From Planctomycetota bacterium (GTDB lineage: Bacteria; Planctomycetota; Phycisphaerae; SM23-33): 64,000 bases of DNA. Positions 34,823-59,012 of the stretch are shown in pieces. The translations under genes were made by a program, and so were the position numbers. The notes below the pieces were generated by a model, which saw only the letters and a list, made by a program, of their open reading frames with translations, was not told the origin of the DNA and ran no database searches. Each line of letters opens with the position of its first letter. Within the stretch, counting starts at the first letter, position 1. The stretch covers positions 1 to 64,000 of the forward strand of contig JAKPKY010000065.1 in NCBI GenBank assembly GCA_029553505.1, given 5' to 3'.

Positions 34823-34918
34823 ACGGAACTCGGAACTGGGGAACCGGGAACACGGAAAGACCATCTTGCGCGAAGCCTAGTTCCTTGTTCCGAGTTCCTG
34901 GTTCCTTATTTTGGTTCC
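34823..34918. repeat. Dispersed GGAACNC-type inverted-arm element (copy A)
   Basis: Left arm GGAACTCGGAACTGGGGAACCGGGAACACGG, core ACCATCTTGCGCGAAG, right arm of GTTCC units. Confidence 0.75.
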
Positions 34919-35764: not shown

Positions 35765-36466
35765 ATGCTTCCCGCCCAGCCGAATGCGAGCCTGATGGAC
35801 GGCGTGACGTGCCTCCAGGCGTTGGCGACGGCCGACGCCCCGGTCGGCGTGCGCGAGCTGGCCCGGCGGCTGGGCATGGAGACCACGCGGGTCAACCGCC
35901 TGCTCAAGACGCTGGCGCACATCGGGATGGCCCGCCAGACGGCCGGGCGGAAGTACGTTCCGGGCCCGGCCATGCACGTGCTCAGCGCCCAGAGCCTGCA
36001 CGCCTCGGGGCTGATCCGCCGGGCGCTGCCCGCGCTGGAGGCGCTGCACCCATTGGGCTGCACGGTGGCGCTGGGGGTGCTGTGGCGCGACTCGGTGTGC
36101 TACCTGTACCACGCGATTCCGGGCATGCCGCCCGAGGCGGCGCTGGGGCGCGTGGGAGTGTTCCCGGCGGCGCAGTCGGGCATCGGGCTGGCGCTGCTGG
36201 CGGCGATGACCGATGACGAGGTTCGCGCCTTGTACTCCGATCGCCCGCCGGCTGGAGGAATCGAGGCGCTGCTGGAAAAGCTCGCCGAGGTCCGCCGCGA
36301 GGGGCACGCGTTCGTCCAGACTCGCCGCCGCCCTCGCACGGTGACGCTGGCCATCGGTGTGGGCAGCCCGCCCTATGCGGCCGTGGCGCTCGCGGGGGAC
36401 CTCTCCACGCGATCCGTGCCGCGCCTGGCGAAACTCCTCCGCGAGGCGGCGGAAAAAATGGCGTGA
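35765..36466 (+). CDS. IclR-family transcriptional regulator
   Basis: GVRELARRLGMETTRVNRLLKTLAHIGMARQTAGRKYVPGP; IclR effector region. Confidence 0.85.
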   Translation: MLPAQPNASLMDGVTCLQALATADAPVGVRELARRLGMETTRVNRLLKTLAHIGMARQTAGRKYVPGPAMHVLSAQSLHASGLIRRALPALEALHPLGCTVALGVLWRDSVCYLYHAIPGMPPEAALGRVGVFPAAQSGIGLALLAAMTDDEVRALYSDRPPAGGIEALLEKLAEVRREGHAFVQTRRRPRTVTLAIGVGSPPYAAVALAGDLSTRSVPRLAKLLREAAEKMA

Positions 36467-36490
36467 ACCGGCGCTTATTTTCCGCGATCG

Positions 36491-36557
36491 GTAGGGTGGG
36501 CAGCTCCGCTGCCCACGGCGTCACGGTTATCTTTGGTGGGCAGACAAGCTGCCCACC

Positions 36558-36561
<4 letters not shown>
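36491..36561. repeat. 71 bp palindromic REP/MITE-like element with 13 bp perfect terminal inverted repeats
   Basis: GTAGGGTGGGCAG (36491-36503) and CTGCCCACCCTAC (36549-36561); inner GGGCAGCTCCGCTGCCC and GGTGGGCAGACAAGCTGCCCACC. Confidence 0.8.
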
Positions 36562-37601
<1,040 letters not shown>

Positions 37602-37607
37602 TTTTTT

Positions 37608-38113
37608 AGTAGCCGGCAGCCAGTAGCCGGTAGCCGGTAACGGCAGTGTCAGCTTTCGGAAACGGCCTTCTTTCTCTGCAAGTACCCAATATATCCGTTC
37701 AAGAGCTTCAGAAGCTCCAGGCAATCTTCCCGCTTGAACTGTTCCAGGCGTTCCTTGTCGGCGTAGCGTTCGTCAATGCAAACATGAATCTGATCGATCA
37801 GTTCCATCAGGGAACCGCGTGAATGCCTGCAAAACTGCGTATTTTCCTGCCAATGGTGGCGTCCATATCCTTCGGCAATATTGCTTGTGACGGATACGGA
37901 AGCCCGTCGCATCTGGTCGGCCAGCCCCTTCTGCTCGTGGGACGGAAGCATTTTTGCCAGGGCATAGATTCGCTGTCGGAATCTCCTTGCCGCCTTGTAG
38001 ACGTCCAAATCTTCGAACCCGAACGGGCTTGCCGATTGGCCATACTTGCTCATGCTCTGTCCTCATCGCATGATGCATTCCGCCCCGACTACTGGCTACT
38101 GACTACTGGCTAC
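37608..38113. mobile_element. Putative intercistronic cassette with inverted AGTAGCC-repeat arms around a four-helix-bundle ORF
   Basis: Left arm AGTAGCCGGCAGCCAGTAGCCGGTAGCCGGTAACGG 37608-37643; right arm GACTACTGGCTACTGACTACTGGCTAC ~38088-38113, inverted. Confidence 0.6.
37649..38053 (-). CDS. Four-helix-bundle protein (S23/bAvd-like, 23S rRNA intervening-sequence type)
   Basis: FGFEDLDVYKAARRFRQRIYALAKMLPSHEQKGLADQMRRASVSVTSNIAEGYGR is characteristic of the family. Confidence 0.9.
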   Translation of the reverse strand: MSKYGQSASPFGFEDLDVYKAARRFRQRIYALAKMLPSHEQKGLADQMRRASVSVTSNIAEGYGRHHWQENTQFCRHSRGSLMELIDQIHVCIDERYADKERLEQFKREDCLELLKLLNGYIGYLQRKKAVSES

Positions 38114-38736
38114 GATTTTCCTCCGGCCTTCAGGCGGTAGGCGTGCTGGAGGATGGTCTCGGGACTGTCCAGTTCGGGGGCGACGGCCAGCACGCGCTCG
38201 ACGAGTGCGGCTGCGTCGGCGCGTTTCTCGCCCAGTTGCACGAGCACGGCGATGGCCTCGGCGGCGGCGGGGGGCAGTTCGGGCTGGGGCGTCGCGGCCC
38301 GTTCGCCCGCGAACGCCTCGACCTTTCCGTGCAGTTCGGCGATGATCTGCTCGGCCGTGCGCTTTCCGATCTCCGGCAGGGCGACGAGGAAGCGGGCGTC
38401 CTTGGCCTGGATGGCGGCAGCGACCTCGGCCACCGGGCGGGCCAGCGCCCGCAGCGCCTTGCGGATTCCGATTCCCTTGACGGTGGTGAAGACGCGGAAG
38501 AACGCGCGGTCCGTCTCGGCGAGGAAGCCCAGCAGGCGCGGCGTGACCGCGCCGTGCGACGGGTCGCCCTCGTGATAGTGGATGGTGTGCAGGACGACGT
38601 CCTGCCCGACGCGCCGCGCGAGGCGCTCGACGTCGAAGGCGGGCACGAGCACCTCGTACCACAGGCCGGCCCCGGCGTCGACCAGCGCCGCGCCCTCGCC
38701 CACCTGCTCCAACCTGCCTGCGATACGTGCGATCAT
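38110..38736 (-). CDS. ruvA: Holliday junction DNA helicase RuvA
   Basis: MIARIAGRLEQVGEGAALVDAGAGLWYEVLVPAF, GFLAETDRAFFRVFTTVKGIGIRKALRAL, LPEIGKRTAEQIIAEL. Confidence 0.92.
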   Translation of the reverse strand: MIARIAGRLEQVGEGAALVDAGAGLWYEVLVPAFDVERLARRVGQDVVLHTIHYHEGDPSHGAVTPRLLGFLAETDRAFFRVFTTVKGIGIRKALRALARPVAEVAAAIQAKDARFLVALPEIGKRTAEQIIAELHGKVEAFAGERAATPQPELPPAAAEAIAVLVQLGEKRADAAALVERVLAVAPELDSPETILQHAYRLKAGGKS

Positions 38737-38759
38737 AGACCCCGAAGTCCACTAAAGAA

Positions 38760-39416
38760 AACAGCAAGAAAAGAACGGTCCACGGATTCCACGGATTTCA
38801 CGGATTACAAAACAACAAGAAGCAGTCCACGAATTACACGAATTCCACGAAGTAAAACAGCACGAAAAGAACGGTCCACGAATTACACGAATTCCACGAA
38901 GTAAAACAGAAAGAAAAGAATCGTCTACGAATGTCCCGAATTTCGCGGAGGAGTTCAAACAAAAAGCGTTCGAATCAGAGGACGACTCTTCGGGATTCAA
39001 AACTTGCGCATCCGAAATTCATCAGGATCGCCAATTGCAACCCGGACGCCTTCAAATAGGATAGCGCCTGGGCCAGGTGGTCATCCGTCAGGCGGTCCAG
39101 GGCCTTCAGCTCGAGCACGATCTTGCCGTCCACCAGCAGGTCCACCCGGAAATCGCCGCAAAGACACTTCTCGTACCAGACCTGCAGGCCCTTCTCGCTC
39201 TCAAAGGGAATGCCCGCCTTTGCCAATTCATAGCCCATGGCCTTTTGATAGACCGATTCGGGAAATCCCGGCCCCAGGGCGGAGTGGACGCGCTGCGCGC
39301 AGCCGATGACGTCAAAGCTCAACTTCCGATGGAGAATATCCGCCATGACCGATTCCCCTTCGCTGCAATCTCTTCTTTTTCTTTTCGTGTAATTCGTGCA
39401 ATTCGTGGACTATCTT
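38760..39416. mobile_element. Putative intercistronic cassette with inverted CCACGAATT-repeat arms around a GxxExxY ORF
   Basis: Left multi-copy arm 38767-38924 (36 bp GTCCACGAATTACACGAATTCCACGAAGTAAAACAG perfect at 38825 and 38874); inverted right arm CTTTTCGTGTAATTCGTGCAATTCGTGGACTA ~39380-39412. Confidence 0.6.
38975..39346 (-). CDS. GxxExxY protein
   Basis: VIGCAQRVHSALGPGFPESVYQKAMGYELAKAGIPFESEKGLQVWYEKCLCGDFRVDLLVDGKIVLELKAL. Confidence 0.92.
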   Translation of the reverse strand: MADILHRKLSFDVIGCAQRVHSALGPGFPESVYQKAMGYELAKAGIPFESEKGLQVWYEKCLCGDFRVDLLVDGKIVLELKALDRLTDDHLAQALSYLKASGLQLAILMNFGCASFESRRVVL

Positions 39417-39898
39417 CTCCTACCCGCGCAGAGGGCGATGGCCAGCGCGTCGGCCACGTCCGGCGGACTGGGCAGTTCGGCCAGGCGGCAGGCGGACTGG
39501 ATGGCCAGTTGCATCTGGCGCTTGCTGGCGTGCCCGTTTCCGGTGAGGGACTTCTTGACCATGGTGGCGGGCAGGTTTCGGACGGGCACGCCGGCCTGTT
39601 CGGCCGCCAGCATGATCGCCCCGCGCGCGTGGGCCATCAGGATGGCCGTCCGCGGGTGCTTGTAGTGGGCGTAGAGCTGCTCGATGGCCACCAGGTCGGG
39701 CTTCAACTCGGCCAGCAGTTCCGCCAGGTCCGCGTGAATTTGGGCAATCCGCCGGGCGAGGGTCGCCTTGGCGTCGGTGCGGATCGTGCCGGCCTCGGCC
39801 ACCGCCGGCTCGCGGCGTCCGAAGTCCACGCACCCGTAGCCGGTGATGTTCAATCCCGGGTCGATGCCCAGCACGCGATAAGACGACGTCCTTGTCAT
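39410..39898 (-). CDS. ruvC: Crossover junction endodeoxyribonuclease RuvC
   Basis: RVLGIDPGLNITGYGCVDF, AIEQLYAHYKHPRTAILMAHARGAIML, DVADALAIALC. Confidence 0.95.
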   Translation of the reverse strand: MTRTSSYRVLGIDPGLNITGYGCVDFGRREPAVAEAGTIRTDAKATLARRIAQIHADLAELLAELKPDLVAIEQLYAHYKHPRTAILMAHARGAIMLAAEQAGVPVRNLPATMVKKSLTGNGHASKRQMQLAIQSACRLAELPSPPDVADALAIALCAGRRR

Positions 39899-40003
39899 GC
39901 TGAAATCATAAAGGCCAAAGGGGAAAGGGGGAAGGCCGAAGAGGGATTGTCAATCCCGACGCGCCCGGGTTCCCGGTTCCTCGGTTCCGGGTTCCTTCTT
40001 CGT

Positions 40004-43280: not shown

Positions 43281-43404
43281 CGCGAATCTTCAAGTAGGAC
43301 AGGCGTCTCGCCTGTCTTGCCGGGAGATCGAGGAGCCTGCATCGGCGCCGACGGGCCCACGCCCGCCGGCGTCGTGCTTTTAGTAGCCAGTAGCCAGTAG
43401 CCAG

Positions 43405-43512
43405 TAGCCGGGAGCCGGGGAAGAAAGGACCCGGAACTCGGAACCAGGAACCCGTTTCCGCGCAGGATGCTTTTCCCGTGTTCCCGGTTCCCCCGTTCCG
43501 GGTTCCGGTCTT
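43405..43512. repeat. Dispersed GGAACNC-type inverted-arm element (copy B, reverse orientation)
   Basis: GGACCCGGAACTCGGAACCAGGAACCCG TTTCCGCGCAGGATGCTTTTCCC GTGTTCCCGGTTCCCCCGTTCCGGGTTCC; preceded by AGTAGCC heptamers. Confidence 0.8.
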
Positions 43513-45012: not shown

Positions 45013-45085
45013 GGAAGGGCTCCTGTCGCGTTCGTGCCAGCCTGGCACAAGGGGGGCATTCTGCCCCCGGCGAACAGGGAAAACA

Positions 45086-45187
45086 AGAAGGAACCCGGAA
45101 CCCGGAACTAAGGAACTCGGAACCCGGAATACGGCAAAACCATCCTGCGCGGAAACGGGTTCCGTGTTCCCGGTTCCGTGTTCCGGT
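45086..45187. repeat. Dispersed GGAACNC-type inverted-arm element (copy C)
   Basis: GGAACCCGGAACCCGGAACTAAGGAACTCGGAACCCGG, core AAAACCATCCTGCGCGGAAACGG, inverted GTTCCNG arm. Confidence 0.8.
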
Positions 45188-45190
45188 CGT

Positions 45191-45609: not shown

Positions 45610-45755
45610 CGAGGGACTCGGGACCAGGGAAACGGAACCCGGAATAAGGAACCCGGAACAGGGAACCAGGAACCCGGGTTTCGCGCAGTGCAGTTTTTCC
45701 GTGTTCCCGGTTCCTCAGTTCCGGGTTCCTGTCTTCGGTCTTCGGTCCTCGCAGC
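45610..45755. repeat. Dispersed GGAACNC-type inverted-arm element (copy D, reverse orientation)
   Basis: GGAACCCGGAATAAGGAACCCGGAACAGGGAACCAGGAACCCGGG TTTCGCGCAGTGCAGTTTTTCC GTGTTCCCGGTTCCTCAGTTCCGGGTTCC. Confidence 0.8.
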
Positions 45756-48763: not shown

Positions 48764-49165
48764 CCCCATTTCCGCGCTTATTTGCGGATTTCGCGTCCTT
48801 TTCCGCGCGATTTCGCACCCATTTCGGGGGGCTTTTTTACCCCTTTTCCGCCCCCTCCGCCACGACCAATCAGACAATCCCACAACCGCCCCGCGCGCCT
48901 CTTACAGAGCCCCGACCGTGAGGGAGGGGTCGCCGGGAGTCGCCGAGTGGAAAGCTGAAAGCGGAAAAAGGAAAGCTGAAAACAAAGAGTAGCGAGTGTC
49001 CTCTCGCCGCGTCAGAGGTTTTCGTCGGACACGTTTCCATTGCGTTTCCTGCCATGACGGTTAGCATGTCTTCCTGCGGGCTGGGAGCCCACGGCCCGAA
49101 GGACAGATGCTCGAACGAAAATATGATAGCGCCCGCCCCTGGCCCGCAAGCAGGAGACGCAGACC

Positions 49166-49849
49166 GTGGACTACACCTACGCCGACATCGCGAAGATGAT
49201 CGATCACTCGCTGCTGAACCCCACGCTGGACGCCGACGCCCTGGAGGCCGGGTGCCGCCTCGCGGTCGAGTACGACGTCGCCAGCGTGTGCATCCTCCCG
49301 TACTACCTCAAGCGGTGCGCGGAGATCCTCGCCGGCTCGACGGTCGTTCCGAGCACGACGATCGGCTTCCCGCACGGCGGGCACGCGACGGCCGTCAAGC
49401 TCGCCGAGGCCCGGCAGGCCCTTGCCGACGGCGGACGCGAGCTGGACATGGTCGTCAACATCAGCAAGGTGCTCAGCCGCGACTGGGACTACGTGCGGGC
49501 GGACATCGCCCCGATCGTCGAGGCCGCCCACGCGGCCGGGGCCAAGGTCAAGGTGATCTTCGAGAACTGCTACCTCGCCGACGAACACAAGATCCGCCTC
49601 TGCGAACTCTGCGGCGAATTGCGGGCCGACTGGGTCAAGACCAGCACCGGATACGGCACGGGCGGGGCGACGATGGACGATCTGAAGCTGATGCGCCGCC
49701 ACGCGCCCGCCCACGTGCAGGTGAAGGCGGCCGGCGGCGTCCGCGACCTGGACACGCTGCTGGCCGTCCGGGCGATCGGCGTCACCCGCTCCGGCGCCAG
49801 CCGCACCCGGGAAATCCTCGACGAGTGCAAACGCCGTCTCGGCCTCTGA
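49166..49849 (+). CDS. deoC: Deoxyribose-phosphate aldolase
   Basis: IDHSLLNPTLDADALEAGCRLA, TTIGFPHGGHATAVKLAEA, ELDMVVNISKVLS, VKTSTGYGTGGATMDDLKLM, VKAAGGVRDLD. Confidence 0.93.
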   Translation: MDYTYADIAKMIDHSLLNPTLDADALEAGCRLAVEYDVASVCILPYYLKRCAEILAGSTVVPSTTIGFPHGGHATAVKLAEARQALADGGRELDMVVNISKVLSRDWDYVRADIAPIVEAAHAAGAKVKVIFENCYLADEHKIRLCELCGELRADWVKTSTGYGTGGATMDDLKLMRRHAPAHVQVKAAGGVRDLDTLLAVRAIGVTRSGASRTREILDECKRRLGL

Positions 49850-52070: not shown

Positions 52071-52703
52071 GTGATCACTACGTCAGCCTTGAGAAGAATG
52101 GCGAAAGCCGGCGATGCGGATGCGCAGTTCAGGCTGGGCTATCGGATTGCTTTGGGCAGAAAACGCCCTCGGCCGACTCGTTGGAAGGATTCGATAGCTT
52201 TGTGGCAGAAGGCTGCCGTCCAAGGACATGTTCGTGCTATGTACTTTCTCGCTGTATGCCATGATTGTGGATATGGCGTCCCTCAAGACTACAAACTGGC
52301 CATGAAATGGTACAAGAAGGCAGCTCAGGCCGGGGATGAAGTCGCTCAATACAACCTCTCTCTTAGTTACCGGTTCGGAGAAGGGGTGGCCAAGAGCAAG
52401 CCGAAGATGGTCTATTGGCTGCGAAGATCTGCCCAAGCCGGTTATCCGGATGCGATGCGAAACTTGGGATTCTGCCTGCATGAAGGTTTTGGGACGCCGA
52501 AGGACTACGCGGGAGCAGTGTATTGGTATCGGAGGGCGGCGAAGGCGGGGGACCGCATAGCCCAGTTTAATCTGGGATTGTGCTATCTCGACGGCGATGG
52601 CGTCTCGCGTTCGCGGCGTTGGGCTCGGTACTGGCTAGGGCAGGCAAGCGATAACGGCCATCGAAAAGCTCGCCGCCTTCTCAACAAGATTAAGCAGCGG
52701 TAG
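52071..52703 (+). CDS. Sel1-like repeat protein
   Basis: Repeats such as GYGVPQDYKLAMKWYKKAAQAGDEVAQYNLSLSYRFGEGV; GTG start. Confidence 0.85.
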   Translation: MITTSALRRMAKAGDADAQFRLGYRIALGRKRPRPTRWKDSIALWQKAAVQGHVRAMYFLAVCHDCGYGVPQDYKLAMKWYKKAAQAGDEVAQYNLSLSYRFGEGVAKSKPKMVYWLRRSAQAGYPDAMRNLGFCLHEGFGTPKDYAGAVYWYRRAAKAGDRIAQFNLGLCYLDGDGVSRSRRWARYWLGQASDNGHRKARRLLNKIKQR

Positions 52704-52811
52704 CGCGTGGCTTGTCCACGCGCGGAGGAGAGTGACTCGCAACTCTTTGTTTTCCGCTTTCCGTTTTCAGCTTTTAGCTTCGGCCTTCGGCCTTTCCCCC
52801 CGGCGGCATGC

Positions 52812-52849
52812 GGTGACCGCTCCCTCACGGTCGCGGCTCTGTAAGAGGT
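52812..52849. repeat. Dispersed palindromic repeat (ACCGCTCCCTCACGGTCGCGGCTCTGTAAGAGGT)
   Basis: Shared with 45762 and 52941. Confidence 0.8.
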
Positions 52850-52940
52850 GTCGCGCTCGTCACTCACCACTCTGCACTCTTCACTTCTTCTCCTTCGTGT
52901 CATTCGTGCAATTCGTGGACTGTATTTTTCCGCATGTCCC

Positions 52941-52968
52941 GGCGACCGCTCCCTCACGGTCGCGGCTC
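52941..52968. repeat. Dispersed palindromic repeat, partial copy
   Basis: GGCGACCGCTCCCTCACGGTCGCGGCTC. Confidence 0.75.
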
Positions 52969-53176
52969 AGTTATCGTATCCGGGAACTGGGGAACACGGA
53001 GCCCGGAATCCCGGCACGCCGTAACTTGCGCCGGGCTTCTGTCTTCCCGGGCTCCTTGTTCCCGAGTTCCGGGTTCCTTTCCCTTAGCGGCTCTAGGCGA
53101 CCCCTCGCTCACGCTCGGGGCTCTGTAAGAGGCGCCGGACTCGCTTCTACATCCCTATTGCCTATTGCCTGCTGCC

Positions 53177-56235: not shown

Positions 56236-56547
56236 TCAGTCCTGGCGGATCGTGACGTTGATCCTTTTGCTGGGCCGGGGCGCGGCGGAATCGTCTCCCG
56301 AGGCCTGTTGCTGCCGGGCGATCATGCGGCGGAGTTTCCACCGCAGAATCAAGACGGCGGCGGCGCCCAGCACGGCCGCGAACGCCGCCACCCCCAGCGC
56401 GATGGCCAGCAGGATTCCCAGCGCCGGAAGCAGCAGGACGCACAGCAGCGCCCCGCCCGCCAGCGCCGCGACGGCCGAAAGCGCCGCGGCGAACTTCTGC
56501 CCCGGCGTCCGCTCCGGTCCGCCGATCTGGATGAAAATCCGCCTCAA
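56236..56547 (-). CDS. Small hypothetical membrane protein
   Basis: 4 nt overlap with etfA; two hydrophobic segments. Confidence 0.55.
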   Translation of the reverse strand: MRRIFIQIGGPERTPGQKFAAALSAVAALAGGALLCVLLLPALGILLAIALGVAAFAAVLGAAAVLILRWKLRRMIARQQQASGDDSAAPRPSKRINVTIRQD

Positions 56548-57566
56548 CGTTCCGTCCCTTCGCCGCCGGGCTTGCCTTGCGCCGCGCGGAGCTTCACGGT
56601 CAGCGCCGGCGCCACGTCGAACAGGCTGCCCACGATCCCGACGTCCGCCACGCGGAAGATCTGCGCGTCGGGGTCAGTGTTGACGGCAACGATCGTCTCG
56701 GCCGTCTGCATGCCCGCCAGGTGCTGGATGCTGCCCGAGACGCCCAGCGCGACGTACAGGCGCGGCGTGACGGTCTTGCCCGACAGCCCGATCTGGTGCG
56801 GGTAGCTCAGCCAGCCGCGGTCCACCACGTCGCGCGTCGCGCCGAGGGCGGCGCCCAGGGCGTCGGCGAGCTTCCGCGCGACGGGCAGGTTGTCGGCCTT
56901 CTTGATTCCGCGTCCGACGGCCACCACCGCGTCGGCGTCCTGGAGTCCGTGCTCGTCGGCATTGGGCACGAAGTCCACGCGCCGCACGCGCGACGGGGGC
57001 AGGTCGGCCGGAGCGGCCAGGCGCTCGATTTCCCCAACGCGCCCGGGTGTGCGGTCGGCGGGGCGGGTGCTCCGCGGACGCACCGTCGCCATCTGCGGGC
57101 GGTGGCGCGGCGTCTTGATCGTCGCCAGGATGTTTCCGCCGATGGCGGGGCGGGTCTGGAGCAGGTTGCCCGTCTTTTCCTCGATGTCCAGTTCGGTGCA
57201 GTCGGCCGTCAGACCCGCGTGCGCGAGGATCGCCACGTACGGCATCAGCGTCCGCCCGGTCGTCGTCGCGCCGGCGATGACGATCTCCGGGCGACGGTCC
57301 GCCAGCAGCTTCAGCAGGCACGCGGCGTACGGCTCGATCAGGAAGTGCTCCAGGCGAGGCGATTCCATCGCGATCACGCGGTCCGCGCCGCGCTCAAGGA
57401 GTTCGGCCAGGTCTGCGTCGTCGATGCGGTTTCCGAAGATCACGGCCGCCAGCTCGCACCCGCGCTTGTCCGCCAGCGCCCGCCCGCGCGTCAGAAGCTC
57501 GTGACTGATCCGCTGCACCCGCCCGCCTTGCTGCTCGGCCAGTATCCACACTCCGCTATGTTGCAT
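56544..57566 (-). CDS. etfA: Electron transfer flavoprotein alpha subunit
   Basis: GWLSYPHQIGLSGKTVTPRLYVALGVSGSIQHLAGMQTAETIVAVNTDPDAQIFRVADVGIVGSLFDVAPAL. Confidence 0.93.
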   Translation of the reverse strand: MQHSGVWILAEQQGGRVQRISHELLTRGRALADKRGCELAAVIFGNRIDDADLAELLERGADRVIAMESPRLEHFLIEPYAACLLKLLADRRPEIVIAGATTTGRTLMPYVAILAHAGLTADCTELDIEEKTGNLLQTRPAIGGNILATIKTPRHRPQMATVRPRSTRPADRTPGRVGEIERLAAPADLPPSRVRRVDFVPNADEHGLQDADAVVAVGRGIKKADNLPVARKLADALGAALGATRDVVDRGWLSYPHQIGLSGKTVTPRLYVALGVSGSIQHLAGMQTAETIVAVNTDPDAQIFRVADVGIVGSLFDVAPALTVKLRAAQGKPGGEGTER

Positions 57567-57581
57567 CTGCCTCTCCTGACA

Positions 57582-58069
57582 ACCAAATCCGAAATTCGAA
57601 GCACGAAATTCGAAACAAATCCAAAACAGACAAATTCAAAACTCCGGTTGCCCAGTTCTGGTCATTCTGATTTCTGGAGAATGGCCCCGAAGATTTTCAT
57701 CAATTCGGTAGATTCCTGGATCAACGAAAGCCTTTCCTTTTCTACGGAAGATTCCGCCGCCGTATGGACAAGTTTGAGCCAGTACCGGCTTTCTTTGGCC
57801 TCCTTGCGGCAAATCTTGATTCGCATCACAAAATCCTTTTTGCTCAGAGACTCATTCGCCTCAATGTAATTCGCGCCGACCGATCCCGAAGCTCTGATGA
57901 GTTGTCGCCCGTCTTCAATGTTCGCCAGTGTCCGCGGCAATGTTTTGGCGAAGGCCCTGACTTTCCTGGCGAAGAGAAATGTCCGCTCTTCTAAATCATA
58001 CTGGCCGGTGTTTTGGGTTTTGGACATTGGAATTTGTTTCGGATTTCGTATTTCGGATTTCGTGCTTTA
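57582..58069. mobile_element. Putative intercistronic cassette with inverted GAAATCC/GAAATTC-repeat arms around a four-helix-bundle ORF
   Basis: Left AAATCCGAAATTCGAAGCACGAAATTCGAAACAAATCCAAAAC; right GTTTTGGACATTGGAATTTGTTTCGGATTTCGTATTTCGGATTTCGTGCTTTA, inverted. Confidence 0.6.
57662..58027 (-). CDS. Four-helix-bundle protein (S23/bAvd-like)
   Basis: DLEERTFLFARKVRAFAKTLPRTLANIEDGRQLIRASGSVGANYIEANESLSKKDFVMRIKICRKEAKESRYWLKL. Confidence 0.9.
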   Translation of the reverse strand: MSKTQNTGQYDLEERTFLFARKVRAFAKTLPRTLANIEDGRQLIRASGSVGANYIEANESLSKKDFVMRIKICRKEAKESRYWLKLVHTAAESSVEKERLSLIQESTELMKIFGAILQKSE

Positions 58070-58867
58070 TCAGATGAGTTCCCTGGTCTGGAGGAATTCC
58101 ACCACGCGGTCGGCGGCCAGCGCGACGGACGTCTCGTCGGCGGCGACGAGTTTTTCGCATTTCCGCGCGACGCTGGGGCGGAAGATCTTCACCACCCGCG
58201 TGGGCGAGCCCTCTAGACCCAGCTTGGAAGGCTCCACGTCCAGGTCGCCCATCGTCCACACCGGCACGTCCGCGCGCTTGGCCTTCTGCTTGCCCCGCAG
58301 CGTCGGCAGGCGCGGGTCGGAAATCTCCTTGACCACCGTCAGCACGCAGGGCAGATCCGCCTCGAGCACCTCGTAGCCGTCCTCGACGAGCCGGTGCATG
58401 CGGCATCGCCCGTCGGAAACGGACTCGATGCGGCTGACGTAGCTGACCACCGGAAGCCCGAGGAACGCCGCGATGCCCGGGCCCACCTGCCCCGTGTCGC
58501 CGTCGGTGGCGCGCTCGCCGCAGAGCACGAGGTCGAACTCGCCCAGCCGGCGGACGGCGGCCGAAAGCACGTAACTCGTCGCCCACGTGTCGCTGCCGGC
58601 GAACGCCTTGTCGCTGAGCAGGACGGCCGTGTCGCACCCCATCGCCATCGCCTCGCGGAGCGCGGTCATCGCCTTCGGCGGGCCCATCGACACCGCCGTC
58701 ACCTCGCCCCCGTGGGACTCGCGCAGGCGGATGGCCGCCTCGATGGCGTACAAGTCCAGCGGATTGATGATCGCCTCGACGCCCTCGCGGATCATCGTGC
58801 CCGTCGCCTCGTCCATCCGGACGGCGTTGGTCTCCGGCACCTGCTTGATCGGAACCACGATTCTCAT
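58070..58867 (-). CDS. etfB: Electron transfer flavoprotein beta subunit
   Basis: MRIVVPIKQVPETNAVRMD, NPLDLYAIEAAIRLRE, CGERATDGDTGQVGPGIAAFLGLPVVSYV. Confidence 0.93.
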   Translation of the reverse strand: MRIVVPIKQVPETNAVRMDEATGTMIREGVEAIINPLDLYAIEAAIRLRESHGGEVTAVSMGPPKAMTALREAMAMGCDTAVLLSDKAFAGSDTWATSYVLSAAVRRLGEFDLVLCGERATDGDTGQVGPGIAAFLGLPVVSYVSRIESVSDGRCRMHRLVEDGYEVLEADLPCVLTVVKEISDPRLPTLRGKQKAKRADVPVWTMGDLDVEPSKLGLEGSPTRVVKIFRPSVARKCEKLVAADETSVALAADRVVEFLQTRELI

Positions 58868-59012
58868 GCTCGCTCCCTTGGATGCGTGAACCGTTGTTTG
58901 TAGCCGCTGGGTGGGAGGCAATCAAGGCCCTGCCTTTCGCCATTCTTCCGTCAATCTGCTGGTCTGGGAGAAAAATTTTGCTATACTTCCCCGCCTGAGC
59001 AAAGGAGCGATC

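Follow-up and report, generated by a model that had tools for sequence, protein, structure and literature searches.

A putative single-gene, inverted-repeat-bounded element without transposase at the ruvA-ruvB junction of a Planctomycetota bacterium, and its relatives at other operon junctions

The ruvA-ruvB junction of a Planctomycetota genome raises the question of whether a small gene framed by inverted repeats belongs to the operon in which it lies or is a passenger in it. We analysed a window of 64,000 nucleotides (positions 1 to 64,000 of contig JAKPKY010000065.1, assembly GCA_029553505.1), in which both host genes run on the minus strand, ruvA upstream of the insert (38110..38736; TIGR00084, E = 1.3e-34) and ruvB downstream of it (36558..37601; TIGR00635, E = 7.6e-121). 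Our preferred reading, to which we assign a probability of roughly 60%, is that the junction holds a copy of a compact operon passenger with a single gene, bounded by inverted repeats and devoid of a transposase, and that it is kin to the intervening sequences (IVSs) of 23S rRNA genes.

The insert, hereafter cassette 1, is about half a kilobase long. Its ORF (37649..38053, minus strand) encodes a four-helix-bundle protein of the S23/IVP type with 134 aa, and the presence of an S23-like ORF between ruvA and ruvB was confirmed by profile searches (PF05635, 23S_rRNA_IVP, E = 1.3e-30; TIGR02436 also matches). The nearest, and only, solved structure found for relatives of this ORF was 2gsc (XCC0516). 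The 5' arm (38085..38113, minus strand) is a degenerate heptamer array, GTAGCCAGTAGTCAGTAGCCAGTAGTCGG, with the unit GTAGCCA/GTAGTCA, and the RuvA stop codon TAG (38112-38110, minus strand) falls within it, just as the original prediction had stated. The 3' arm (37609..37639, minus strand) is a heptamer array complementary to the 5' arm; it had been expected to end at the RuvB start, but stops 7 nt before the ATG (37601-37599). Tandem Repeats Finder gave a period of 7 on both sides of the ORF, which upholds the heptameric nature of the arms, although the individual units are degenerate. Over 29 nt the two arms are 83% complementary.

Within cassette 1 the PF05635 ORF was the only gene, with no match to any transposase family, and Rfam cmscan detected no group I or group II intron family at E ≤ 0.5. 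The single weak Rfam match was to an implausible IRES model, far below the cut-off, and an Rfam RNA identity was rejected. A known defence system was rejected as well, since the proteins of cassette 1 and of the two other cassettes of the window (see below) had no PADLOC match.

The sister species G001 has no ORF at ruvA|ruvB, its junction being TAGCCAGTGGCTACCGGCTACTAAAAAATG, and its RuvA and the N-terminus of its RuvB are, respectively, 95-97% and 98% identical to those of the source genome. In most of the family this junction is short (6-54 bp) and the ORF is absent; it was found there in three scattered genera. G032 has a complete element at this junction, built on the source's repeat word, and G005 a complete element with a different word. 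Two other relatives carry a solo array of the source's word; the junction of G029, a congener of these two, is bare. All these junction states occur in scattered positions on the RuvA+RuvB tree, the deep branches of which are weakly supported. The unit is not fixed, so that the test for fixed vertical inheritance in all relatives did not refute the proposal, and its presence and absence among them support the cassette as the discrete entity that had been proposed.

Besides the one at ruvA|ruvB, a further five elements are polymorphic when the sister genomes G000 and G001 are compared. The empty alleles of these five consist of one fused array, one mini-hairpin with a 5-nt loop and three sites with one arm. 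As all empty alleles that were compared in the two sisters still have an array of the element's own word, loss fits the data at least as well as gain in this species pair. In the case of the L099 site, the empty allele is a deletion, because sequence of the 5' UTR of the element is still there. No target-site duplication was recognisable at the six polymorphic sites, where the repeats obscure the comparison.

Heptamer hairpins without an ORF are also found in the window. Those of the GGAACCC type lie at 34824..34906 (a candidate derivative with a conserved loop core, ..CCATCTTGCGCG..), 43429..43508 (adjoining an AGTAGCC array at 43382-43416), 45085..45190 (core CCATCCTGCGCG), 45633..45729 and 53000-53060, and a conserved core near CCATCCTGCGCG is common to at least four of the GGAACCC hairpins of the window. 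A hairpin query produced 47 BLAST matches in G000 and 45 in G001, with single arrays accounting for many of these and repeat hits on one locus for some, and the family is dispersed through both genomes. G001 has one 78-bp hairpin that G000 cleanly lacks. The ORF-less hairpins may be non-autonomous derivatives or relics of the armed elements.

Both the arrays of the same word retained by the empty sister alleles and the abundance of ORF-less hairpins (40 or more matches per sister genome, one being cleanly present or absent) would also be expected if the arrays came first, that is, if arrays and hairpins made by slippage, simple repeats such as Xanthomonas and cyanobacteria have, were resident and S23 ORFs homed into them or recombined between them. 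We consider this explanation unlikely, though deserving of some weight. Slippage alone gives neither an inverted partner array around one gene family nor a period of 7 or 9 bases set by the protein family. Moreover, the repeat word tracks protein relatedness across unrelated sites. In 3602 pairs of loci at non-homologous sites, for which sharing of a 5'-arm word was compared with protein identity, a word was shared by 0-1% of the pairs below 40% identity, 4% of those at 40-50%, 11% at 50-60%, 39% at 60-70% and 83% above 70%, although this last bin does not purely reflect arms, because some of its pairs are from arm-less clades whose upstream regions are conserved. Within an element, the two arms also matched each other better than they matched arms on the same side of related elements in 34 of 45 pairs, a measure with a partial bias, the arms having been taken out by their mutual alignment. 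This result suggests arm-to-arm copying within an element.

The reading of the insert as a passenger gains further from DNA alignments. Alignments between copies at unrelated sites extend over about 410-480 bp, with 72-81% nucleotide identity, and end at the arms; one genome holds two such copies that align across the element only. The ruvA|ruvB ORF of the source is 70% identical to a copy in G006, placed between two ABC-transporter genes (named from their sequence), but 58% identical to the copy at ruvA|ruvB in G032, a relation that speaks for movement of the unit rather than for plain vertical inheritance at this junction. These comparisons show that arms and ORF form a bounded unit, which is dispersed together with its own word and is polymorphic. 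No near-identical copies were found at unrelated sites, the closest pair having 91% amino acid identity and saturated dS, and no recent transposition was therefore detected. The copies seen at unrelated operon junctions are all old, and their spread could be slow, or could proceed by horizontal transfer and recombination. The S23 proteins of L153 and L155, both in G021, are 91% identical while their synonymous sites are saturated, implying either very strong constraint or separate acquisition.

The window contains two further cassettes, ruvC|GxxExxY|ruvA and etfB|PF05635|etfA. Cassette 2 has a 5' arm at 39384..39407 (minus strand; a 9-mer array with a CACGAATTA-like unit), an ORF between ruvC and ruvA at 38975..39346 (minus strand; 123 aa; GxxExxY / PDDEXK_3, PF13366 and TIGR04256) and a 3' arm region at 38743..38932 (minus strand), where 9-mer arrays lie within a 49-bp tandem block of 3.9 copies. 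The 3' side of this cassette (38743-39407 as a whole) has been expanded to that tandem block, and the sister species has the cassette with 91% identity. Cassette 3, between etfB (58070-58921) and etfA (56544-57566), comprises a 5' heptamer array at 58037..58063 (minus strand; unit AAATCCG/AAATACG), a PF05635 ORF of 121 aa at 57662..58027 (minus strand) and a heptamer array complementary to the 5' arm at 57585..57615 (minus strand). Four PF05635 and four GxxExxY ORFs were counted in the entire assembly (2.5 Mb; completeness about 73%), and complementary short tandem arrays enclose all eight of them, the unit differing for each ORF; these genome-wide counts come from searches and from individually examined stretches.

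The association of arms with these ORFs was measured by local alignment, scoring the complementarity of upstream and downstream flanks, with locus swaps, segments of equal length from other parts of each locus, and ruvB genes as controls. Among PF05635 loci of the source family, 69 of 77 scored above the 99th percentile of the same-locus control segments, a fraction that holds for the arm-bearing clades, because the set had been cleared of nine loci from two PF05635 clades in which the lack of arms was already known. An unfiltered cross-phylum sample, representing one S23 subfamily, gave 64 of 77. According to their titles, these loci are from Planctomycetota, Chloroflexota, Nitrospirota, Acidobacteriota, Verrucomicrobiota, Bacteroidota, several proteobacterial groups, Bacillota, Cloacimonadota, Elusimicrobiota, Fibrobacterota and one Roizmanbacteria genome. 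For GxxExxY the corresponding figure was 27 of 30. Related loci had a median score of 50, against 18 for same-locus controls, and medians of the armed sets ranged from 39 to 50, compared with a maximum of 25 among the ruvB control genes. The complementarity thus exceeds chance, and arms are a specific feature of S23-type ORFs in many phyla, so that the comparison with background sequence did not refute the proposal either.

The period of the arms follows the protein family, being 7 (in some cases 8) for PF05635 and about 9 for GxxExxY. Autocorrelation of the near flanks peaked at lag 7 for PF05635 (0.38 and 0.33, with a far-flank background of 0.25) and at lag 9 for GxxExxY (0.34, background 0.32); since the bulk excess in the latter is small, its period rests mainly on individual arrays. 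The 5'-arm units of the cross-phylum loci L193-L272 are purine-rich, those of the WQKAM subfamily have a loose core NAGTNGN (5.0 bits, 4.0 in shuffled units), and the GxxExxY 9-mers are similar to NNCRCRRAG.

On named plasmids, inverted arrays were present at all ten PF05635 genes inspected, with junctions such as cas6|S23|cas4, SufA-like|S23|sufB and AAA ATPase|S23|parB. The S23 element of Anabaena sp. 90 plasmid pANA02 (L277) lies inside a type I-D CRISPR operon, between cas6 and cas4. Clear 9-mer arms were seen at three of seven plasmid GxxExxY genes (Sphingomonas fabD|fabG, Bacteroides and Bernardetia), and the arms of the other four were weak or absent. In addition, two PF05635 clades are mostly arm-less (L065, L066, L068, L088, L089 and L090; L101-L103), and arms are therefore not obligatory for the family. 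These clades, which bear MFENLQVYQKAVDLADQ-like and MKYKRFEDLPVWQ-like signatures, have the look of resident genes, perhaps domesticated ones.

For ORF pairs with finite dS, dN/dS was 0.02-0.18, and the ORFs are thus under purifying selection. Both neighbours were co-oriented with the ORF at 120 loci of the PF05635 sets and both opposed at 4; the same comparison for GxxExxY gave 21 to 0. Gene calls for these counts were heuristic, using the longest or the best-scoring open frame. Co-orientation with the host operon, noticed at first for the single ORF of cassette 1, is thus a general bias. Retention of sense copies is expected if persistence of the element needs expression of its ORF; orientation-specific insertion is a conceivable alternative source of the bias.

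Strong purifying selection and co-orientation, together with the domesticated look of the arm-less clades, might also be found in a resident small gene with a role in the operon, the repeats being incidental or acting as transcription attenuators. Such an explanation is very improbable in view of the presence and absence between sister species, of the scattered distribution at ruvA|ruvB and of the lack of a fixed neighbour, the ORFs being found in ruv, etf, nrd, cas, suf, par and ABC-transporter operons. Furthermore, the control genes have no arms.

The likeness to 23S rRNA IVSs to which the original prediction appealed is real. IVSs with an S23p ORF are known from Coxiella, Leptospira and Brucella, where they interrupt rRNA genes and are excised from the rRNA, and in Coxiella three tandem GACAGAT heptamers precede the S23p ORF, at the RNase III site (PMC4990558). 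An origin of IVSs by transposition was proposed by earlier authors, and the Coxiella paper draws no connection from the repeats to stand-alone S23 genes (PMC4990558). IVSs and cassettes have in common a PF05635/S23 ORF, a length of about 0.43 kb and complementary ends that close a stem. In contrast to the IVSs, the cassettes are intercistronic in protein operons and bear an array of heptamers at either end, the word being particular to each element; cassette 1 lies between ruvA and ruvB, and no Rfam rRNA match was obtained over 36300-40000.

Because RNase III excises the Coxiella IVS (PMC4990558), the cassettes could likewise be intervening sequences at the RNA level, RNase III cutting the arm stem in the operon mRNA and thereby freeing or isolating the S23 ORF, with selection on RNA pairing. 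The overwhelmingly sense orientation of the ORFs agrees with this proposal, and the arms of cassette 1 pair in the predicted minimum-free-energy fold (z = -4.1), although such pairing is trivially expected of inverted repeats. A maintained RNA stem should accumulate more G-U than A-C mismatches on the sense strand, but the counts in three sets were 106 versus 105, 76 versus 94 and 46 versus 57. As G-U is not in excess of A-C, selection on an RNA stem is not supported, and the arms are best read as DNA terminal repeats. An intervening sequence acting at the RNA level is accordingly a distinctly unlikely account.

The ORF of cassette 1 also has a weak match to the Avd family of diversity-generating retroelements in PHROGs (PHROG 3206, E = 0.00037), bAvd being a related four-helix-bundle family. 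This distant similarity and the strong strand bias would be compatible with spread mediated by a reverse transcriptase of the host, assisted by the bAvd-like protein. However, unlike diversity-generating retroelements, the cassettes of the window have no reverse transcriptase beside them, the only RVT_1 match of the genome being on another contig (C219), and some genomes with many copies gave no RVT_1 match, among them G027 (seven PF05635 matches, 96% complete) and G029 (nine matches, 90% complete). With several copy-rich genomes (at least 90% complete) free of any RVT_1 match, dependence on reverse transcriptase was rejected, and spread by this route is scarcely probable at all.

The transposase-less passenger that we favour has partial parallels in other systems. 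RAYT/REP and MITE systems combine inverted short repeats around one gene with many ORF-less hairpins per genome that have related arms. The cassettes, too, have one gene within inverted repeats and ORF-less hairpins in the genome, but their ORF is PF05635, with no Y1 HUH or other recognised transposase, and their arms are tandem heptamers whose word varies by element, whereas RAYT arms are fixed REP sequences. Terminal inverted repeats and (old) copies at unrelated sites are features shared with DNA transposons and insertion sequences, from which the cassettes differ in encoding no transposase. Intergenic heptamer arrays with a variable word, some of them in inverted pairs, are likewise found among cyanobacterial STRRs and in Xanthomonas and Beggiatoaceae; these have been described as simple repeats, with no protein family tied to them. 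The GGGAATC repeats of Xanthomonas form 70-75 inverted pairs per genome and generally have no association with mobile elements (PMC4692102), and for the TAACTGA repeats of Beggiatoaceae no transmission mechanism was evident (PMC4679880). Published descriptions of the arrays of Xanthomonas, Nostoc and Beggiatoaceae draw no link to S23 genes (PMC4692102, PMC4679880), but on cyanobacterial plasmids we found STRR-style repeats flanking S23 genes. Among open-access papers, none was found that links PF05635 or GxxExxY to such arms; the description of these elements as an undescribed class stands for that literature only. We take the elements to be a new and much wider form of the IVS, with a new class as a further possibility.

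A mechanism consistent with these data would start from an element of about 0.45-0.5 kb whose ends are terminal inverted repeats of degenerate tandem heptamers and whose sole gene encodes the S23/IVP four-helix-bundle protein. This protein, a pentamer in the solved relative, may bind arrays of its own word and aid spread at the DNA level through recombination or repair enzymes of the host, which are invoked because no catalytic mobility gene was found. To our knowledge, no binding, cleavage or mobilisation activity has been attributed to stand-alone S23 proteins. Transcription of the host operon would express the ORF, so that sense copies persist, and slippage or palindrome-assisted deletion between the arms may leave mini-hairpins or solo arrays at vacated sites. 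The 23S rRNA IVSs would be elements of the same type that landed in rRNA, and the GxxExxY cassettes, with their 9-mer arms, would represent a parallel type built on an unrelated protein of the PD-(D/E)XK family.

In its widest form, the proposal is that of a new transposase-less mobile class in which small S23 (non-enzymatic) and GxxExxY (nuclease-fold) proteins read arrays whose period, 7 or 9, depends on the protein and whose word depends on the element, and spread the units through operon junctions of most bacterial phyla, with the cyanobacterial, xanthomonad and Beggiatoaceae repeats, for which an explanation has long been lacking, as relics and the 23S rRNA IVSs as members. We advance this tentatively, as somewhat short of an even chance. 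Bacteria commonly have PF05635 and GxxExxY genes that pass as "hypothetical", and these would gain a biological setting if they proved to be the genes of inverted-array elements. If true, the proposal would give a common origin to heptamer repeat families that have been described separately for decades and would place the 23S rRNA IVSs within a wider class of elements. It also offers a testable mechanism, namely a pentameric four-helix bundle that reads a tandem 7-base word.

Two other repeat arrangements were observed in the window. Complementary heptamer arrays, GGAAAGC and TTTCCGC, lie about 3.8 kb apart at 48949-48981 and 52751-52780, with several ORFs between them (a deoC-like gene at 49166-49849, two hypotheticals and a Sel1-repeat-like protein at 52071-52703, all named from sequence only); they possibly delimit a larger armed segment, or are two separate arrays. 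Finally, a palindromic stretch, GACCGTGAGGGAGCGGTCGCC ... GCTCTGTAAGAGG, recurs in intergenic positions at 48900-48930, 52815-52850, 52945-52975 and 53095-53135.
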